A model generated the notes under the pieces. That model had not been told where the DNA came from, searched no databases, and saw only the letters and a list, made by a program, of their open reading frames with translations. From IMG/VR virus record IMGVR_UViG_3300025674_000376, positions 1 through 24,437 of that record: DNA of 24,437 bases. The stretch is one strand, 5' to 3'. Of this stretch, positions 1,394 through 12,000 are shown one piece after another (the first letter of the stretch is position 1; the number at the start of each line of letters is the position of its first letter). This stretch comes from a virus. The position numbers were made by a program, and so were the translations under genes.

Positions 1394-2035
1394 CTATTTA
1401 GTTGTGTCTATTTTCTCTCCAACATCATCAATATCACAATCTTTTATCATAGTAGCAATGTCACCACCAATTTTGGAACCTTGATCCTGTCCGAGCATTA
1501 CCGCCCATCCCGCAGCCAAGAAACCAATATAAGGAATGCTACTAAACCATGGGGCAACAGCAGCACCCATAGAAGCGCCAACCAGTCTACCTGCATTTTG
1601 TCCCCCACCTTCCGCCTTGATACACTCTATATTTTTGGCAGTCAGCTTTCCCAAGCCGCTACCTCCCTGAAGGTGACGAGCACCATCCATAGTATACTCT
1701 TCAGATTGTTTAACATCTGTACGACCACCAATGCCAAAGAATCCATTCTTTTTTTGAATATCTTTATTGATGCTCATAACTCTAGGATCGTTTGCACGAT
1801 ATTCGATGGAATAACCATCTTTCGAAGCTTCTACAGTATATGCAGTATAGTCACCTACGGGCAAATTAATAACTGGTAATCTAGATGCATTCATTAAATG
1901 TCCAAGTATTCCAAGATGAGCAATACCAAACAAAGCACCAACAGAAAGTGCTACCCATTTAAATGGAGACTTGCTCGGTACATGCTCGGTGACTTGATCA
2001 CTTTCTGTCGCAACAGTAGATTTCCATAATTCCAT
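1394..2035 (-). CDS. Membrane-anchored protein with glycine-rich hydrophobic C-region, unknown function
   Basis: This gene encodes 213 aa and starts at ATG 2035-2033, 18 nt after the preceding stop. Residues 27-48 (WVALSVGALFGIAHLGILGH...) form a convincing transmembrane helix after a short polar N-terminus with KSPFK, consistent with an anchor. Residues 55-140 look soluble and contain one Cys (138). Residues 144-181 are rich in small residues in a glycine-zipper-like pattern (GGGQNAGRLVGASMGAAVAP, then GFLAAGWAVML), so a second membrane-inserting hairpin is likely. The C-terminal tail is acidic. I do not recognise a family. Being next to a small two-helix membrane protein and behind packaging genes, it could act in lysis (spanin or holin partner) or in membrane penetration during DNA entry. 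It has no signal-peptidase or lipobox site. Confidence 0.8.
   Translation of the reverse strand: MELWKSTVATESDQVTEHVPSKSPFKWVALSVGALFGIAHLGILGHLMNASRLPVINLPVGDYTAYTVEASKDGYSIEYRANDPRVMSINKDIQKKNGFFGIGGRTDVKQSEEYTMDGARHLQGGSGLGKLTAKNIECIKAEGGGQNAGRLVGASMGAAVAPWFSSIPYIGFLAAGWAVMLGQDQGSKIGGDIATMIKDCDIDDVGEKIDTTK
1395..1402 (-). promoter_or_regulatory. Late-promoter-like motif ACTAAATA
   Basis: Read on the minus strand this is ACTAAATA, six of eight matches to the T4 late consensus TATAAATA. It lies 33 nt upstream of the DUF6321-type start at 1361, and its last two bases are the first two of the TAG stop of the preceding gene. The junction position supports it; the degenerate first two bases weaken it. 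Confidence 0.4.
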
Positions 2036-2053
2036 TTTTCTAAAAGCGATGGA

Positions 2054-2515
2054 TTAAATTGTAGGCATTACAGGAGGTTCGTCGTCTTTCTTAGGTGTGG
2101 TGGCAATTTGAATTGGTGCTTGTTCGATACGAATGGTCTGAGCAGGTGCTGTCTGTGCTGCTGCGGCAATCAGTTTCTCAAGATCTGCCTTAGAGACACC
2201 GCCACCGCCACCCATCTTCATTGTTCCATCACCAGACTTCTTCGCAGTCTGAACTCCAAAGGTAGCTAGGACCCCAGTGAAGACGGATGCGATGAAAGTA
2301 GGATCAAGTTTCTGCTCAGGGATTCCAAGGGCAGCAGGCAACTTAATGTATGCAAGGGTAAGAATACCACCAGACCAGATAAGAATACCAAGTCTAACCA
2401 TTGTACTAATCGCTTCTAACTGACCTTCATGATCAGCAGCAGCATCCTTTAGTTTAGCAAACGGACCTTTCTTTTTTTCTTCCTCTTTCAGAGGTTCTTT
2501 TACTTCTTCTGCCAC
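2054..2515 (-). CDS. Small two-helix membrane protein, candidate holin
   Basis: This gene encodes 153 aa and begins at ATG 2515-2513, 21 nt after the gp16-like stop and behind an AATAAATA late motif. A charged N-terminus (residues 1-36, Lys/Glu-rich) precedes two hydrophobic segments, about 39-64 (MVRLGILIWSGGILTLAYIK...) and 73-91 (TFIASVFTGVLATFGVQTA), with a short PEQKLDP turn between. Then come a glycine run (102-106), a SKADLEKLIAAAAQ helix and an acidic, proline-containing tail ending PPVMPTI. Size, two closely spaced helices and charged ends fit the general plan of class II holins, and a late gene next to packaging genes is a plausible place for one. I recall similar uncharacterised proteins in cyanomyoviruses. 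The holin role is inference; a membrane protein of the virion or infection complex is the alternative. Confidence 0.85.
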   Translation of the reverse strand: MAEEVKEPLKEEEKKKGPFAKLKDAAADHEGQLEAISTMVRLGILIWSGGILTLAYIKLPAALGIPEQKLDPTFIASVFTGVLATFGVQTAKKSGDGTMKMGGGGGVSKADLEKLIAAAAQTAPAQTIRIEQAPIQIATTPKKDDEPPVMPTI

Positions 2516-2536: not shown

Positions 2537-2953
2537 CTATTTATTTTTTGACATCTGTTTAAGCATCTTTTGAAGTTCAGCAGTGCTTCCTACAAACATC
2601 GCATTATTAGTCACATTCGTTGGACCTTTACTCTCTTCATTGATTTCCTTCAAATCTTTCTGAAGTTTCAAGAATTTATCTGTTGTATCAGCAACACTCT
2701 TGAGTAATTGACCAGCAACTTCATATGCTCTAGGAGATTGAGATTCTTCTGCTAACTCCATAATACCATTCAAAGCTTCTTGACCCTTTTCAATTAAAGA
2801 GTATAGATTTGCCCTGGTGTATTCATAGTCCTTCTCCACATCATCTTTTGCTAGACGATCTGGTTTTTCTTTTTCTTTCTTAACGGGAGTTACATCTACA
2901 ACTTCACTTGTAGTGTTTAACGCTTCGTCTATTTTACCGAAATCATTCTTCAT
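2537..2953 (-). CDS. 16: gp16-like small terminase subunit
   Basis: This gene encodes 138 aa and overlaps the end of gp15 by 4 nt (ATGA), so translation is probably coupled. After an acidic/basic linker come helical segments typical of T4-type cyanophage gp16: KDYEYTRANLYSLIEKGQEA (about 46-65), a segment with SQSPRAYEVAGQLLKSVADT (72-91), and a coiled-coil stretch through KFLKLQKDLKEINEE. The C-terminal part carries NVTNNAMFVGSTAELQKMLK, also typical. T4 gp16 (164 aa) forms an oligomeric ring that helps the gp17 motor start headful packaging; no gp17 is inside this window. The position directly after gp15 is as in T4. Recognition rests on layout and remembered motifs. Confidence 0.82.
   Translation of the reverse strand: MKNDFGKIDEALNTTSEVVDVTPVKKEKEKPDRLAKDDVEKDYEYTRANLYSLIEKGQEALNGIMELAEESQSPRAYEVAGQLLKSVADTTDKFLKLQKDLKEINEESKGPTNVTNNAMFVGSTAELQKMLKQMSKNK
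2538..2545 (-). promoter_or_regulatory. T4-type late promoter motif AATAAATA
   Basis: The minus strand reads AATAAATA followed by G, seven of eight to TATAAATA. It lies 22 nt upstream of the start of the two-helix membrane protein, and its last two bases begin the TAG stop of the gp16-like gene. The same 7-mer also occurs at chance-like frequency inside genes, so the junction position is what supports it. Confidence 0.5.
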
Positions 2954-6001: not shown

Positions 6002-9000
6002 CAGAATGTACCCCCGTCGATGCTGTCAGACCAAATTGGAATGTTGTTTTCGTCAGTTGTCAGGACATAGTTTGAAGTAGTCAGGAATCCAACTGTGCTC
6101 AGACCACTGACGATCCTTCCATCATTTTCAAAGTAAGCAACACCATTAGGTCCGCTATATCCAATACCGTTGATTCCACCTTGATCAGATCTGTAGTAGA
6201 TACCATCACGGAATGTACCGTAACCGATTACGCTCAGATCATCTTGGACAGTTACCTGACCAGCAGCAGAATCAAGAACGAGTTCACCGCTAAGAGTATT
6301 TATTTTGGTGGAAGAAGAACCAGCACCGATTGTAATGTTAGCGATCGTAGATACGCCAGTTACTTTCAGATTATTGGTGGTTGTTACACCAGAGATGAAC
6401 AGGTTACGACCGTTAACCTCATCATAAACAACATCACCGATGATATTCAGATTACCAGCGATGTAAACATCGGTGTTGAAGGTAGCAATACCAACGACTG
6501 TCAGTCCGAGACCAATTACAGTGTCGCTAGCAACATCTAACTTACCAGTTTGCAGTTCGCCAGAGACGCTAGCACCAATTGCCGTTGTCTCAAATCTCCT
6601 ACCATTATCATAATTCAGTTGAACTTTGCCATCAGCAGTGAAGTTAGCGAGAGTCTCGCCAGTGTACTTCTGAAGTTCTACCTGATTAGAACGGATTGCA
6701 AGGGTTCCTGTACCAGTATCATCGATGTAAGAGTTAAATCCATCGTGGTAGATTTGCAGGTCATCATCATTACCAAAGTTTGCCTTGACTCCATCTTTGA
6801 AGCTAGTGATTCCAGTAAATACTGCGTTGGTTACTGCAACACCAGTAATCTTGGCATCAAAGGCATCGAGTGCCTCTGTATCAATCGTTGTGATGGTAGC
6901 AGCAGTACCAACAGTATCTGTTACTGCCAGACCAGTAATGTTGACATCACGAGCATCTAAGGTCTCGATATCAACTGTTGTGATGGTAGCATATGTACCA
7001 ACCAGAGAAGTTACGAGACCAGTTACTACTCTTAGATTTTCAACTGTAAGAGTTGACTCAAATTCAGAGTCTCCTGTTACGGTCAGACCAGCACCAACGG
7101 TGAGGTTGGATGTGAAGGTAGCAACACCAGTGATCTTAAGATCTTCAAGCAGGGTAGATCCGAGAACATCGAGTCTTGCTCTTGGAGATGCAGTAGCGAT
7201 ACCCAGTAACTGACCAGGATCAAGACGCATACCCTCAACACCGTCAGTGTTGAAGCGGATAGTGCCGTCAGAACCAGAGTCATCAAGAGCAATGGAGGTG
7301 TCGCCCTTCTGGAAGGCATCCAACTGGATGACCGTAGCGGTCAGGATACCCAGGACATTGACATCGCCAGTGATGTTAATCGAACCAGCACCAGCAGGGT
7401 CGATGTTGATATCACCAGTGGTGGATTCGATGTTGTTTCCAGAGATCTGGATGTTACCGAATGTGCCGCTGGTAGGAGTGATCGTGCTGCTGTCTACGCC
7501 ATCAGTGATCTGGAGGGAAGACAGTGCCTGCAGACTGGTTACCTGCTGCGAGAACGCAACCGTGCCAGACTCCTGATCGACATAGAAGGCATCACCGACT
7601 CTGAAGTCACCCTTATGGTCGATGCTGACAAAGGAAACATCGCCGTTGTTAACCTCAGTAACTTCGTTTGCCTGAATTGCCAGGTTAGGATCGTTGGAGA
7701 AGTCTCCACCAGCACCAACATGGTTGAAGTTCAGAGCAAAGAGTCTCAGGGTTACGCCATCACCGTCAGCAATGACACCCTTTTGACCATACTCAACAGC
7801 ACATCCGACCGAACGCATGTCGGCACCGAACTTGCTGTAGTCGGCAAGGATAACCTTAGTAGCAGTTCCGATGCCACCACCCGCTTGAGTGATGCGAACA
7901 TCTTGATATCTGATTACATCATCAGTTGTAGTTTGGATACCAGCAGAACCATTGAAGTGCAGTAACAGGGAAGTATCCTTATCACCGAGCAACTCGGCGG
8001 TCGGAGCAGTGAATCCTGCGGTGTACTTAGCAACTCCGTACTCAACTCTGACTTCATCGATATAACCTACCAGAGAGTTGCTGGTTCCATCAAAGTCAGC
8101 ACCGATAACCAGACCCTTGGATGCACCGTAGTCTGTCGTGTCTGATGCCTTAGTACCAATTTGTGTACCATCAACAAACAGTCTTGTATTTGTACCTTGT
8201 CTTGCCAGGGCAACATGATACCAAGTTCCAGTAGCAATACCAGCACCAGAACCTTCGATAGCGGTTGTTGTGCCAACACGCATATCAACTTCACCAGCAG
8301 CACGGAAGGCAAGACTGATACCTTCAGCGTCTGTTCCGTTGTCTCTGAAGTCGATCAGAGTTGCAGAAGAAAGACCAGACTGATAAGAGTTGACGAAGAA
8401 TTCAACCGTAAAGTCTGTATTAGTTCCGAATCCGAGATCTCCGCTAGAAGGAACGCTAATAGAATCATTAGTTCCATCAAGCGCGAGAGAAGCAGTACCA
8501 AACTTCTTAACAGTTGTGCTCAGTTGAGCATTATCGTTAAAGGTGATTGCCTTAGCAGATCTAGCAATGAGTACCTCAAAACCAGTTTGCTTGCCAGTTA
8601 CATCGATGTAAGTACCATCGTAGTCAGCAACAACAGCGGTAGCAAGACCAGTTACTCCATCGGTATCGTAGTAGGTGATAGTATCACCAACGCCCAGCGT
8701 GGTGATGCCAGTCATTCTCAGTCTGGTTTCACCAGTAGAGGACAGACCGACAGATCCAGATACACCCTTAACCGCTTCGCTAGCAAAGTAGGTGAAACAG
8801 TTCAGGTACTCGATACGAGCACCGTTGGTCATTTCGAGACCCTTACCGCCAGGAACGATGAAGGTACATTCGTTGAACAGGAAACCTGCCTCTAAGGACC
8901 CAGGAGCGAGTTCTGAACCATCAACATAGGCACCACCACCCGAGATGTAAGAAGACGGCGGAGAGTCCGCAGAACCGTATCCGTAGGGATCGGTAGCAGT

Positions 9001-12000
9001 GATGTTGCTACCCTTGTTGAAGACGGTTACACGCTGGACATAAGGCGATCTGGCGGTAATAGCGATGCCAGGAGCATAACGGAACGCCCAACCTTGGTTA
9101 CCAGCGGTATCGAAGTACTGACCAGCAACGGTGACATCTTCGACAACCGTTCTGTCGTTCATCAAGAATGCGTCCTTTTGCCTTGTGGCAATCGTAGGCA
9201 TAATCTTGGTAGCACGGAGACCCGCACCCTTGACCGTTACACCAGCAGGGATAAGCAGTGGGAAGGTTTCCTCATAAACGCCAGCATCAATTTGCAGAAT
9301 CTCATTGACGCCAACCCCTGTCATTGCTGCCAGGGCATACTTAATCGTTCTGTATGGTCTCTCGGGGGTTCTACCGCGAGAAGCATCACCATCGTCAACA
9401 CCATTCAGAGAAACATACCATGTGTCAGTTCTGGCGTTAATGGTAGCAATACCAATCTGAGCAGGTTCACGCCAGGTGATTGTGCCTGCAGGATCAGTGC
9501 TCAGGATGTGCTGAGTGTTAACACCAACAACTCCAGTGGAGTCATACAGCGAAGTGATGAAACCAGAAGTGATGAACGCAGAGGTAGCGATACCAACCTG
9601 AGTTACCAGATTAGTGATAGCGAAGTCTGTGGCAAGACCAGCAGTGATCTTCGCATCTTCAATATCCGCATTTACAAAGTCAACGGTTACGATAGTTGCA
9701 GCAGTGCCAACTACATCGGTAACAGCAAGACCAGTGATGTTTACATCACGAGCATCCAGGGTCTCAATATCTACTACTGTAATAGTAGCGTATGTACCAA
9801 CCTGAGATGTGATAATACCAGCAGTGATCTTCGCATCCAGTGCATCAAATACTTCAGTATCAAGAGTGGTGATAGTTGCAACACCACTAGTGATCAGATT
9901 TTGGATAGTACCAATTCCAGAGATGTTGATGTTTCTACCAACAACCTCGTCGTATTGAACATCACCGATGATATTCAGATTACCAGCGATGTAAACATCA
10001 CTTTGGAATGTAGCAATTCCAGTTACTGTAGAAGCACCAGATACTTGAATATCGGTAACTGCTAAACCAGTAATATTGACATTACGAGCATCAAGAGTCT
10101 CAGTATCAAATACCGTGATTGTGGCATATGTACCAACGATACTTGTTACAACACCAGCAGTAATCTTAGCGTTTACAATGTCACCTTCGGTGACATCGAT
10201 TGTGGTGATTGTAGCAGCAGTACCGACGATATCTGTAACTGCCAGACCAGTAATGTTTACATTACGGGCATCGAGAGTCTCGATATCAACAGTCGTGATT
10301 GTGGCATAGGTGCCAACCTGAGATGTGATAATGCCTGCGGTGATCTTGGCATCTCTGGCATCGAGAGTCTCAATATCAACAGTCGTAATAGTCGCATAGG
10401 TGCCAACAAGACTGGTAATAATACCAGCAGTGATTTTGGCATCAAGGATATCAGCGGCATCGAGGTGTGCAGTACCGTCGATGTAGATATCTCTCCACTC
10501 ACGATCGGTAGTGCCTAGATCCAGAGAGTCATCGACATTAGGAATAAACTTAATGTTAGATTCCCATGCTTCTCTTGGGAAGTCATACAGGAAGGTCTTA
10601 TCAGTCGTTCCTTTAAGAATGATACCACCGTCGTTGGCCGCGGCATCAGAGGCAGAAATACCAGAGGTAATACCAATCTCAATGTTCTTGTCAGTTACTT
10701 GCAGAACCTGACTCTGAACAAAAGTAGTGGTTCCTCTGACGGTCAGATCGCCAACAACGGTAAGAGCACCACCAACACGAACATCGTTTTGGAAGTTAGC
10801 ATCTCTGATCGTTGCATATGTGCCTGTCAGAGAGGTGATAATACCTGTTGTGATCTTGGCATCAAGAGCATCAAGATTCTCAAAGTCTGCTGTGTTATAG
10901 GTTACGCCATAACCAGACAAGGAAGTAACAACACCAGCAACAACCTTGATTGTATTGATATCACCTTCGTTAGAGTCGAAGGTTGTGATGGTTGCGTATG
11001 TACCTACAAGAGAGGTTACAAGTCCAGTAGAGATCTTGACATCTCTGAGGTCAGCAGTCTCGGTATCAAATACAGTAATTGTGGCATATGTGCCAACTTG
11101 AGATGTAATGATACCAGCGGTGATCTTCGCTGCTTCGATATCTGCATTTACGAAATCTACATTCGTAATAGTTGCAGCAGTACCGACAGTATCCGTGATG
11201 ATACCAGACTGAATCTTAGCGTAAGTGATCGCAAAGTCAGTTGCTAAACCAGCAGTGACTTTGATGTCCTCAACACCAATATCATTGGCATCGATTTGAG
11301 GAACAGATGTTACGCCAGCGATTACTGTGTTACCAGTGCCCTTATCAACAATTACTACACCACCGACATCGAGCAACCCAAAGGGTCGTGTGGTGCCGAT
11401 ACCGACATAACCAAGTTGGTTACCGTCGATCCAATTGATATTCTCGTTACCAATTACAAGTTGATTGTCGCTATCTCCGATAGCAACATTTCTTTGATAA
11501 CCGATAATAACATTGCCACTGCCATAAGTTTCGTTACCAGCAGAATAACCAATGGCAATGTTCTTGCTACCGTCTACTCTGTAAAGAGTGTAAGGACCGA
11601 TAGCAATGTTTCTTTGCTGTTGTCTGGACCCCGTACCACCACTCAGGAAGGTTCCGTTCTTGCTTGTTACAGAACCTGTAAGGGTCTGGAATCCGAAAGG
11701 CATGGTGAATGTATCACCAACCTCATAACCATCACCAGGAGAGATGATTTCAATATTTGTGACAAGACCAGTGGAACCAGTCTGAAGTCTAACTAACAGA
11801 CCCTGACCAGATCCACTGGTTTCTGTTACATCTTCAGTCTGATCATAATCTGCAACAGCAGTTTGGTCACCAACATTAATGCTCAGACTTACCGCATCAA
11901 CAACGGGGAAAGTCTCACCGTACATTGCCTGGTTACCCAGAGCAATGTTCTCGTCGTTACCACTAGAAGATAAGGCAAAACCTACCTTATCACCGATCAT

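Follow-up and report, generated by a model that had tools for sequence, protein, structure and literature searches.

A conserved pair of late membrane-protein genes with a DUF6450 member as a candidate lysis cassette of marine cyanophages

In T7 the gene order around the lysis functions is tail fibre 17, holin 17.5, TerS 18, Rz/Rz1 and TerL 19, and the class II holin gp17.5 (phrog_920) is a small protein with two helices. The Rz-Rz1 spanins of T7 and lambda and the one-piece spanins combine an inner-membrane anchor with a periplasmic domain and a possible contact with the second membrane; T4 holin T is a one-anchor protein in an N-in layout, and T4 Imm is a small two-helix membrane protein that acts early in superinfection exclusion. 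Lysis of Prochlorococcus and Synechococcus by phages feeds the marine carbon cycle, and in the titles and abstract beginnings that were searched we found no assigned holin for T4-like or T7-like cyanophages, nor did any paper searched contain the word DUF6450. The accessible part of a 2026 paper leaves open a holin-endolysin mechanism as the cause of lysis timing in Syn9 (PMC13371907). Published reports count four lysis ORFs in S-CREM2, five in S-CREM1 and one in S-SZBM1; the S-CREM2 ORFs include two endolysins, and these authors may know of other cyanophage lysis genes.

We analysed a gene pair in a stretch of 24,437 nt (the window), which is the whole of IMG/VR record IMGVR_UViG_3300025674_000376 and represents the late region of a T4-like ocean cyanophage, encoded on the minus strand. 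Its genes encode wedge proteins of the baseplate, structural-type proteins of very large size and gp13, gp14, gp15 and gp16; the pair (here p153 and p213) lies 3' of gp16, ahead of genes for a DUF6321 protein, a phrog_1742 protein and a structural protein of the virion. Another IMG/VR fragment (L081) is 99-100% identical to the window across gp15, gp16, p153, p213 and the DUF6321 protein. A first-pass annotation of this DNA had described the pair as unassigned membrane proteins, apparently behind their own late promoter, possibly a lysis module or alternatively, for the glycine-rich p213, a channel for genome delivery. That the two are real genes was borne out by their ORFs (Table 1) and by their membership in conserved families, and "unassigned" remains the correct term, as DUF6450, phrog_2714/721 and phrog_605 carry no stated function. 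Its remark that the window holds no other lysis gene likewise stood, none being recognised when 16 proteins of the window were compared with PHROGs (E limit of 1 for 10 of them and of 0.001 for six). The sole match to a family of the "lysis" kind, that of a 105-aa protein to RIIA, was at chance level (E = 0.13), and gp14 gave a minor match to a tail-lysozyme family (E = 2.3e-05) over a repeat-rich stretch.

Table 1. Positions of the gene pair, its protein features and the flanking promoter motifs in the window
Feature	Position	Strand	Basis
p153, two-helix membrane protein, DUF6450 core and conserved C-terminal tail, holin-like candidate (153 aa, GTG start)	2054..2515	-	PF20048, phrog_2714
p153 helix 1, residues 39-57	2345..2401	-	hydropathy; W47 and S48 invariant in 21 sequences (alignment A2)
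p153 helix 2, residues 70-88	2252..2308	-	hydropathy; conserved core in alignment A4
p153 C-terminal tail, residues 109-134	2114..2191	-	conserved in 53 T4-like-type sequences (A4)
p213, N-terminal anchor, predicted beta region and glycine-zipper hairpin (213 aa, ATG start)	1394..2035	-	phrog_605, AlphaFold
p213 anchor helix, residues 25-49 (AlphaFold; 27-45 by hydropathy), invariant H40	1889..1963	-	H40 in 80/80
p213 four-stranded region, residues 64-114	1694..1846	-	AlphaFold secondary structure
p213 glycine-zipper hairpin, residues 133-197	1445..1639	-	AlphaFold and alignment
p213 invariant Cys138 codon	1622..1624	-	80/80
p213 invariant Cys200 codon	1436..1438	-	80/80
ATAAATA late-promoter motif of the p153-p213 unit, 29 nt ahead of the p153 GTG and overlapping the stop of gp16	2538..2544	-	same arrangement in L044 and L081
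Next late-promoter motif CTAAATA, at the p213 stop, before the DUF6321 gene	1395..1401	-	motif scan

The first gene product, p153, matched PF20048 (DUF6450) with an E value of 6.5e-34 and 116 bits against a Pfam cut-off of 25, and phrog_2714 with an E value of 1.1e-64; relatives were found by tblastn (E up to 0.1) in 444 of 50,697 phage records. The two helices and charged ends that had been described for it were recovered by hydropathy, and the AlphaFold model, although poor (mean pLDDT 58.4) and unfit for a fold search, supported helices in the hairpin part only (residues 31-56 and 72-85). No solved structure was matched by sequence. Positive residues flank both helices, from which we infer an N-in/C-in orientation. 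The C-terminal tail, with K109, P124, Q126, E131 and P134 invariant in the 53 sequences of alignment A4, is missing from the T7-like DUF6450 versions aligned in A2; its consensus includes QTIRIEQAP. Like T7 gp17.5, p153 is small with two helices (by hydropathy and the low-confidence model), and, judging by the motif described below, it also has a late-gene promoter, as a class II holin would. It differs from gp17.5 in its long conserved tail, which is not explained by a simple holin, and in sequence: hhalign found no similarity between DUF6450 and T7 holin 17.5 (probability 0.2%), and none of the Pfam or PHROGs matches of p153 pointed to a proven holin family. As the kinship to holin families that was tested came out negative, we keep p153 out of the holin class.

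The second product, p213, had one strong match, to phrog_605 (E = 6.7e-70, residues 19-200), and relatives in 365 of the 50,697 phage records (tblastn, E up to 0.1). Thinning of full ORFs reduced 146 sequences to 82 p213 representatives (and 190 to 52 in the companion set), of which 79 were aligned with the window sequence (alignment A3; L064, L081 and L161 were left out). Topology prediction by hydropathy and AlphaFold gave an N-terminal helix and a hairpin, in agreement with the single anchor helix and glycine-zipper hairpin noted earlier, although confidence in the model was moderate to low (mean pLDDT 71.7, pTM 0.37). The predicted hairpin is formed by helices 133-159 and 171-197, and its GxxxG pairs 149/153 and 186/190 are invariant in all 80 sequences; the positions unchanged throughout are H40, C138, C200, G149, G153, G171, G176, G186 and G190. 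Exactly two cysteines per protein are present in 78 of the 80 sequences and three in the other two. Because the invariant cysteines lie just outside the hairpin, they suggest a C138-C200 disulfide and hence that this part of p213 would reside in an oxidising compartment past the inner membrane.

The size and putative layout of p213 resemble those of T4 holin T, but p213 gave no match to PF11031 (T4 holin) and has a hairpin in addition. With the spanins it shares an anchor and a putative periplasmic domain; it differs in having a hydrophobic hairpin and no N-terminal lipobox, its usual two cysteines being those at 138 and 200. As for an outer-membrane spanin partner, p213 has no N-terminal cysteine, and the proteins of the module were inspected by eye only. 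Searches against solved structures by sequence returned two weak matches (best E = 0.077), and fold searches gave no clear match: in BFVD three matches reached an E value of 0.001 or better, the top one being a 323-aa protein of S-SSM7, in PDB nothing fell below an E value of 2, and in VIA the best match (Z = 5.2) covered the hairpin only, with the other parts barely included.

The late promoter of cyanomyoviruses is given as NATAAATA (PMC2984593). In the window, [AC]TAAATA occurs seven times on the coding strand (minus-strand positions 1395, 2538, 3926, 6297, 13452, 21203 and 22716) and not once on the other, and the earlier proposal that the pair has its own late promoter was strengthened by the conservation of this motif before p153 in relatives. 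Among the matches listed, 134 of 159 distinct regions had the motif in the 100 nt ahead of p153, as compared with 9.1 expected by shuffling, at a distance from the p153 ATG of 20-29 nt in 113 cases, 30-39 nt in 20 and 10-19 nt in one; it was found upstream of p213 in one of 143 regions (matches listed). A second control gave a similar picture, with the motif 15-45 nt upstream of 127 of 154 p153 ORFs and of 145 of 1414 other ORFs (10.3%), the control ORFs (at least 100 aa) having been called mechanically on both strands and hence not all being genes. For p213 and nine other labelled genes pooled the count was 40 of 504, comprising among others gc234 (0/91), gc945 (6/78), stb (25/116), petE (0/26), regA (1/13), gp62 (0/13), gp44 (0/7) and gp16 (0/9). 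Within the same pool, hsp20 had the late motif in seven of eight upstream regions, a sign of another late gene. Before p153 the commonest 7-mers in 158 regions were CTAAATA (66), the overlapping TAAATAG (60) and ATAAATA (58), CTAAATA thus being at least as frequent as ATAAATA.

Sorted by the nearest labelled upstream gene, the p153 motif was present after gc945 in 80 of 80 regions, after regA in 10 of 14, after stb in five of seven and after gc237 in neither of two; it was also present in all four regions with a distant upstream neighbour and in 33 of 44 without a labelled one. In the gp16 context it was found in two of eight regions when only ATG starts were used, and on re-examination lay between gp16 and p153 in four of eight, three of the eight starts (L020, L159 and L215) being extrapolated positions and not real start codons. 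With the upstream-most ATG taken as the start, p213 overlapped p153 or followed it by no more than 30 nt in 89 of 141 loci; the gap measured 31-600 nt in 50 loci and exceeded 600 nt in two. As the motif stands before p153 and almost never before p213, the two probably form one late operon, and in the window the next motif on the same strand, at the p213 end, brackets the pair. Thus, p153 usually appears to bring its own late-promoter motif whatever its location, and p213 to come without one.

To place the pair in its genomic surroundings, viral loci were taken from the best 80 matches per search, an uneven sample; 219 p153 loci were reduced to 185 distinct ones by dropping 34 with identical p153 DNA. 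Among the matches listed, the nearest labelled gene upstream of these 185 was gc945 in 94, regA in 14, stb in nine, gp16 in eight and gc237 in two, while in four the neighbour lay more than 900 nt away and in 54 there was none. The position after gp16 is therefore a minority arrangement (8 of 185 distinct loci, matches listed), which is a new observation, and the pair and its partners behave as a moving unit. We found the pair at genome sites of three or more kinds, in most cases alongside membrane or exported proteins (phrog_568, 570, 848 and 650): p153 follows regA in S-SM1 and S-RIM8 and comes one gene later in P-RSM6, and it lies near petE in S-SM2 and SynMITS9220M01. p213 was found within 3 kb downstream of p153 in 117 of 143 loci with at least 1.2 kb visible, and in the 54 loci where 4.5 kb or more could be inspected on the downstream side we counted gc235 in 50, gc234 in 49, gc236 in 48, stb in 47 and p213 in 46 (matches listed in both cases). 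In loci L071 and L073, p153, p213, gc236 and gc235 all point in the same direction. Since the record under study comprises only 24,437 bases, the absence of the other cassette genes here is uninformative on the remaining genome.

The partner proteins look like envelope proteins. Judged by eye, gc235 and gc236 have apparent N-terminal signal peptides, and gc234 ends in a hydrophobic helix and a basic tail; none of gc234, gc235, gc236 and stb matched an enzyme family over the cut-off. NCBIfam gave nothing near a cut-off, and the main text of Sullivan 2010 mentions none of GC218, GC219, GC234, GC235, GC236 and GC414. A small one-helix protein, stb (phrog_568; L088:10338-10658 and L091:8585-8863), carries the description "plasmid stability protein", a name that we did not adopt because it rests on the phrog_568 description and nothing else was found for it. 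The upstream neighbour gc945 (phrog_591, T4-GC 945; e.g. L092:7191-7943) has an HExxH motif in all 94 distinct sequences, HEGWH in 93, and a likely signal peptide in the one sequence inspected; it is likely an exported HEGWH metallopeptidase-like protein. We regard gc945 as a weaker associate, given its late motif in only six of 78 regions and its place before gp5 in S-SM1. A scan of genome_contigs for DUF6450 returned 17 loci (12 MAGs, four single-cell assemblies and one isolate), which are possibly phage DNA. The isolate is the flavobacterium Nonlabens xiamenensis, whose DUF6450 relative lies on a contig (L249) of 188 kb, a size that would fit cyanophage contamination.

The family is also present in T7-like cyanophages: P-SSP7, P-SSP10 and MedDCM-OCT-S28-C3 score above the Pfam cut-off, and further models detect it in P-SCSP1u and, as an unannotated gene, in S-TIP37. 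In P-SSP7 and S-TIP37 the DUF6450 gene has annotated tail-fibre genes on one side and the terminase genes on the other, which is the slot of T7 holin 17.5; in P-SSP10 and MedDCM-OCT-S28-C3 the terminase genes come after it and the large genes ahead of it are unnamed. The order differs in P-SCSP1u, where relatives of DUF6450, phrog_650 and phrog_848 follow TerS-TerL in the same direction. According to the P-SSP7 record, PSSP7_043 is predicted to span the membrane twice and 042 once, and 044 may begin with a signal peptide. PSSP7_043 resembles p153 in Pfam family, predicted helices and related neighbours; the T7-like versions differ in being only 101-103 aa in P-SSP10 and P-SSP7 and in the missing tail. 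Profile comparisons with hhalign (E values for one comparison each) linked gc236 to phrog_650 (98.5%, E = 2.8e-15), gc235 to phrog_848 (99.9%, E = 2.2e-34) and the gc234 C-terminus to phrog_9426 (93%, E = 2.6e-7). By sequence comparison, then, the neighbours of DUF6450 in T7-like cyanophages are relatives of the p153 neighbours (phrog_650, phrog_848 and the phrog_570 C-terminus), and a late envelope gene set appears partly common to T4-like and unrelated T7-like cyanophages. No p213 was found in P-SSP7 in a search run without a positive control, and T7-like phages seem to do without it. No DUF6450 was detected with the A2 model in Syn5 positions 33,000-46,214, and S-SZBM1 gave neither a PF20048 nor a p213 match; alignment A2 includes S-CREM2 gp131 and the P-SSP7 and P-SSP10 members, and its matches on S-CREM2 and P-SSP7 are circular. 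In Syn5, the gene between the tail fibre and TerS is gp47 (L255:3393-3653), whose product is hydrophobic near its N-terminus and charged in the remainder; it may be an unrelated protein that does the same work.

Taken together, we give a probability of about one half to the reading that the pair belongs to a late envelope-disruption or lysis cassette, with p153 as a holin-like hairpin and p213 as its periplasmic partner. The N-in/C-in hairpin p153 would accumulate late and perforate or depolarise the inner membrane in the manner of a class II holin; p213, anchored N-in, would set next to it a periplasmic region closed by a disulfide, together with a hydrophobic glycine-zipper hairpin, so as either to regulate p153 or to reach and disturb the second membrane in spanin-like work, and another part of the genome would supply the wall-cutting activity. 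The main weight for this reading comes from the promoter, the linkage and the position in P-SSP7 and S-TIP37. Against it stand the gene order of P-SCSP1u, the lack of DUF6450 in S-SZBM1 and the Syn5 stretch, and the motif in only four of eight gp16 contexts. Compared with a phage lysis locus, the DUF6450 gene takes the slot of the T7 holin in two phages, P-SSP7 and S-TIP37, but has no recognised endolysin beside it and comes after TerL in P-SCSP1u. Of the lysis module proposed by the first-pass annotation, the conserved late motif, the T7-holin position and the exported or membrane neighbours speak in its favour, whereas no endolysin was recognised in the p153-p213 cassette and similarity to the T7 holin was not found. 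In eight cyanophage records PF11031 matched none (no T4 phage served as positive control), and PF00959 (phage lysozyme) matched two, the S-SM1 ORF annotated "lysozyme murein" and the S-CREM2 virion endolysin ORF209, both times as part of a large ORF (925 and 1456 aa) at a long distance from the DUF6450 gene. A broader version is more tentative: marine T4-like and T7-like cyanophages may exchange one late cell-exit cassette (DUF6450 hairpin, phrog_650, phrog_848 and tail-anchored phrog_570/9426) for which we found no match among described lysis cassettes, p213 being in the T4-like members a new kind of spanin or a holin regulator of disulfide-closed, inner-membrane-anchored glycine-zipper type. 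The DUF6450 protein is a good candidate for a cell-bursting protein of marine cyanophages. With a conserved and late candidate now named in two phage lineages, the question can be put to direct test; cyanophage engineering has been described (PMC8776855).

The pair could instead belong to a late module for envelope remodelling or export that does not trigger lysis, its membrane proteins anchoring proteins of the gc235/gc236 type or helping to bring them to the outside of the cell, where they might, for instance, release progeny from surface structures or label the cell as infected. The membrane-anchored or exported look of gc234, gc235, gc236 and stb, the lack of an enzyme family over the cut-off among these usual neighbours of p153 and p213, and the lack of a recognised endolysin in the block agree with such a module, but DUF6450 occupies roughly the holin position of T7 in P-SSP7 and S-TIP37 and its T7-like versions consist of little beyond the hairpin, and we consider such a module rather unlikely. 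Still less probable is superinfection exclusion, in which p153 would act like T4 Imm and p213 as a blocker in the periplasm, so that other phages could no longer enter the infected cell. Both p153 and Imm are small two-helix membrane proteins, p213 is likely periplasmic, and the pair lies between regA and gp43 in S-SM1, S-RIM8 and P-RSM6; exclusion genes are usually early, however, and the late-promoter motif before p153 sets it apart from Imm. In favour of exclusion, cyanophages are said to lack the r genes that serve T4 in superinfection and lysis inhibition (PMC2984593). The PADLOC defence-system library gave no match for six proteins, which says little on exclusion.

The remaining alternative, that the virion contains p213 and that the glycine-zipper hairpin of this protein forms a DNA-delivery channel, is in keeping with the late-promoter motif, with the place of the pair among structural genes in the window and with the suitability of glycine zippers for membrane insertion. 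It was weakened, least so for p213, by the likely signal peptides of two cassette neighbours and by the absence of the probable DUF6450 relative S-CREM2 gp131 (64 aa) from the virion table of that phage, which has 52 proteins and whose smallest entries are 78-84 aa, weak evidence for so tiny a membrane protein; gp16 is, moreover, the nearest labelled upstream gene in only those eight of 185 distinct loci (matches listed). We judge a virion role improbable, the least probable of these explanations.

The S-CREM2 protein gp131 is probably a divergent DUF6450 relative: it matched the p153 model at E = 0.018 and the Pfam model at E = 9.9e-4, under the cut-off, and its S-N03 counterpart, located before gp13, matched phrog_21865 at E = 1.7e-7 and the p153 model at E = 1.7e-6. 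No p213 relative was found in S-CREM2. The 87-aa protein S-SZBM1_195 (L104:378-641), encoded directly after gp16 and listed with a high emPAI in the available part of the S-SZBM1 virion table, was considered as a DUF6450 protein and rejected, being a virion protein after gp16 with no DUF6450. In the DUF6450-like proteins of S-CREM2 (L087:37580-37774) and S-N03 (L099, ~8950-9144), helix 1 is preceded by an N-terminal loop, DINSNGILDRHE and DVNSDGVLDSHE, respectively, which we take to resemble a calcium-binding EF-hand.
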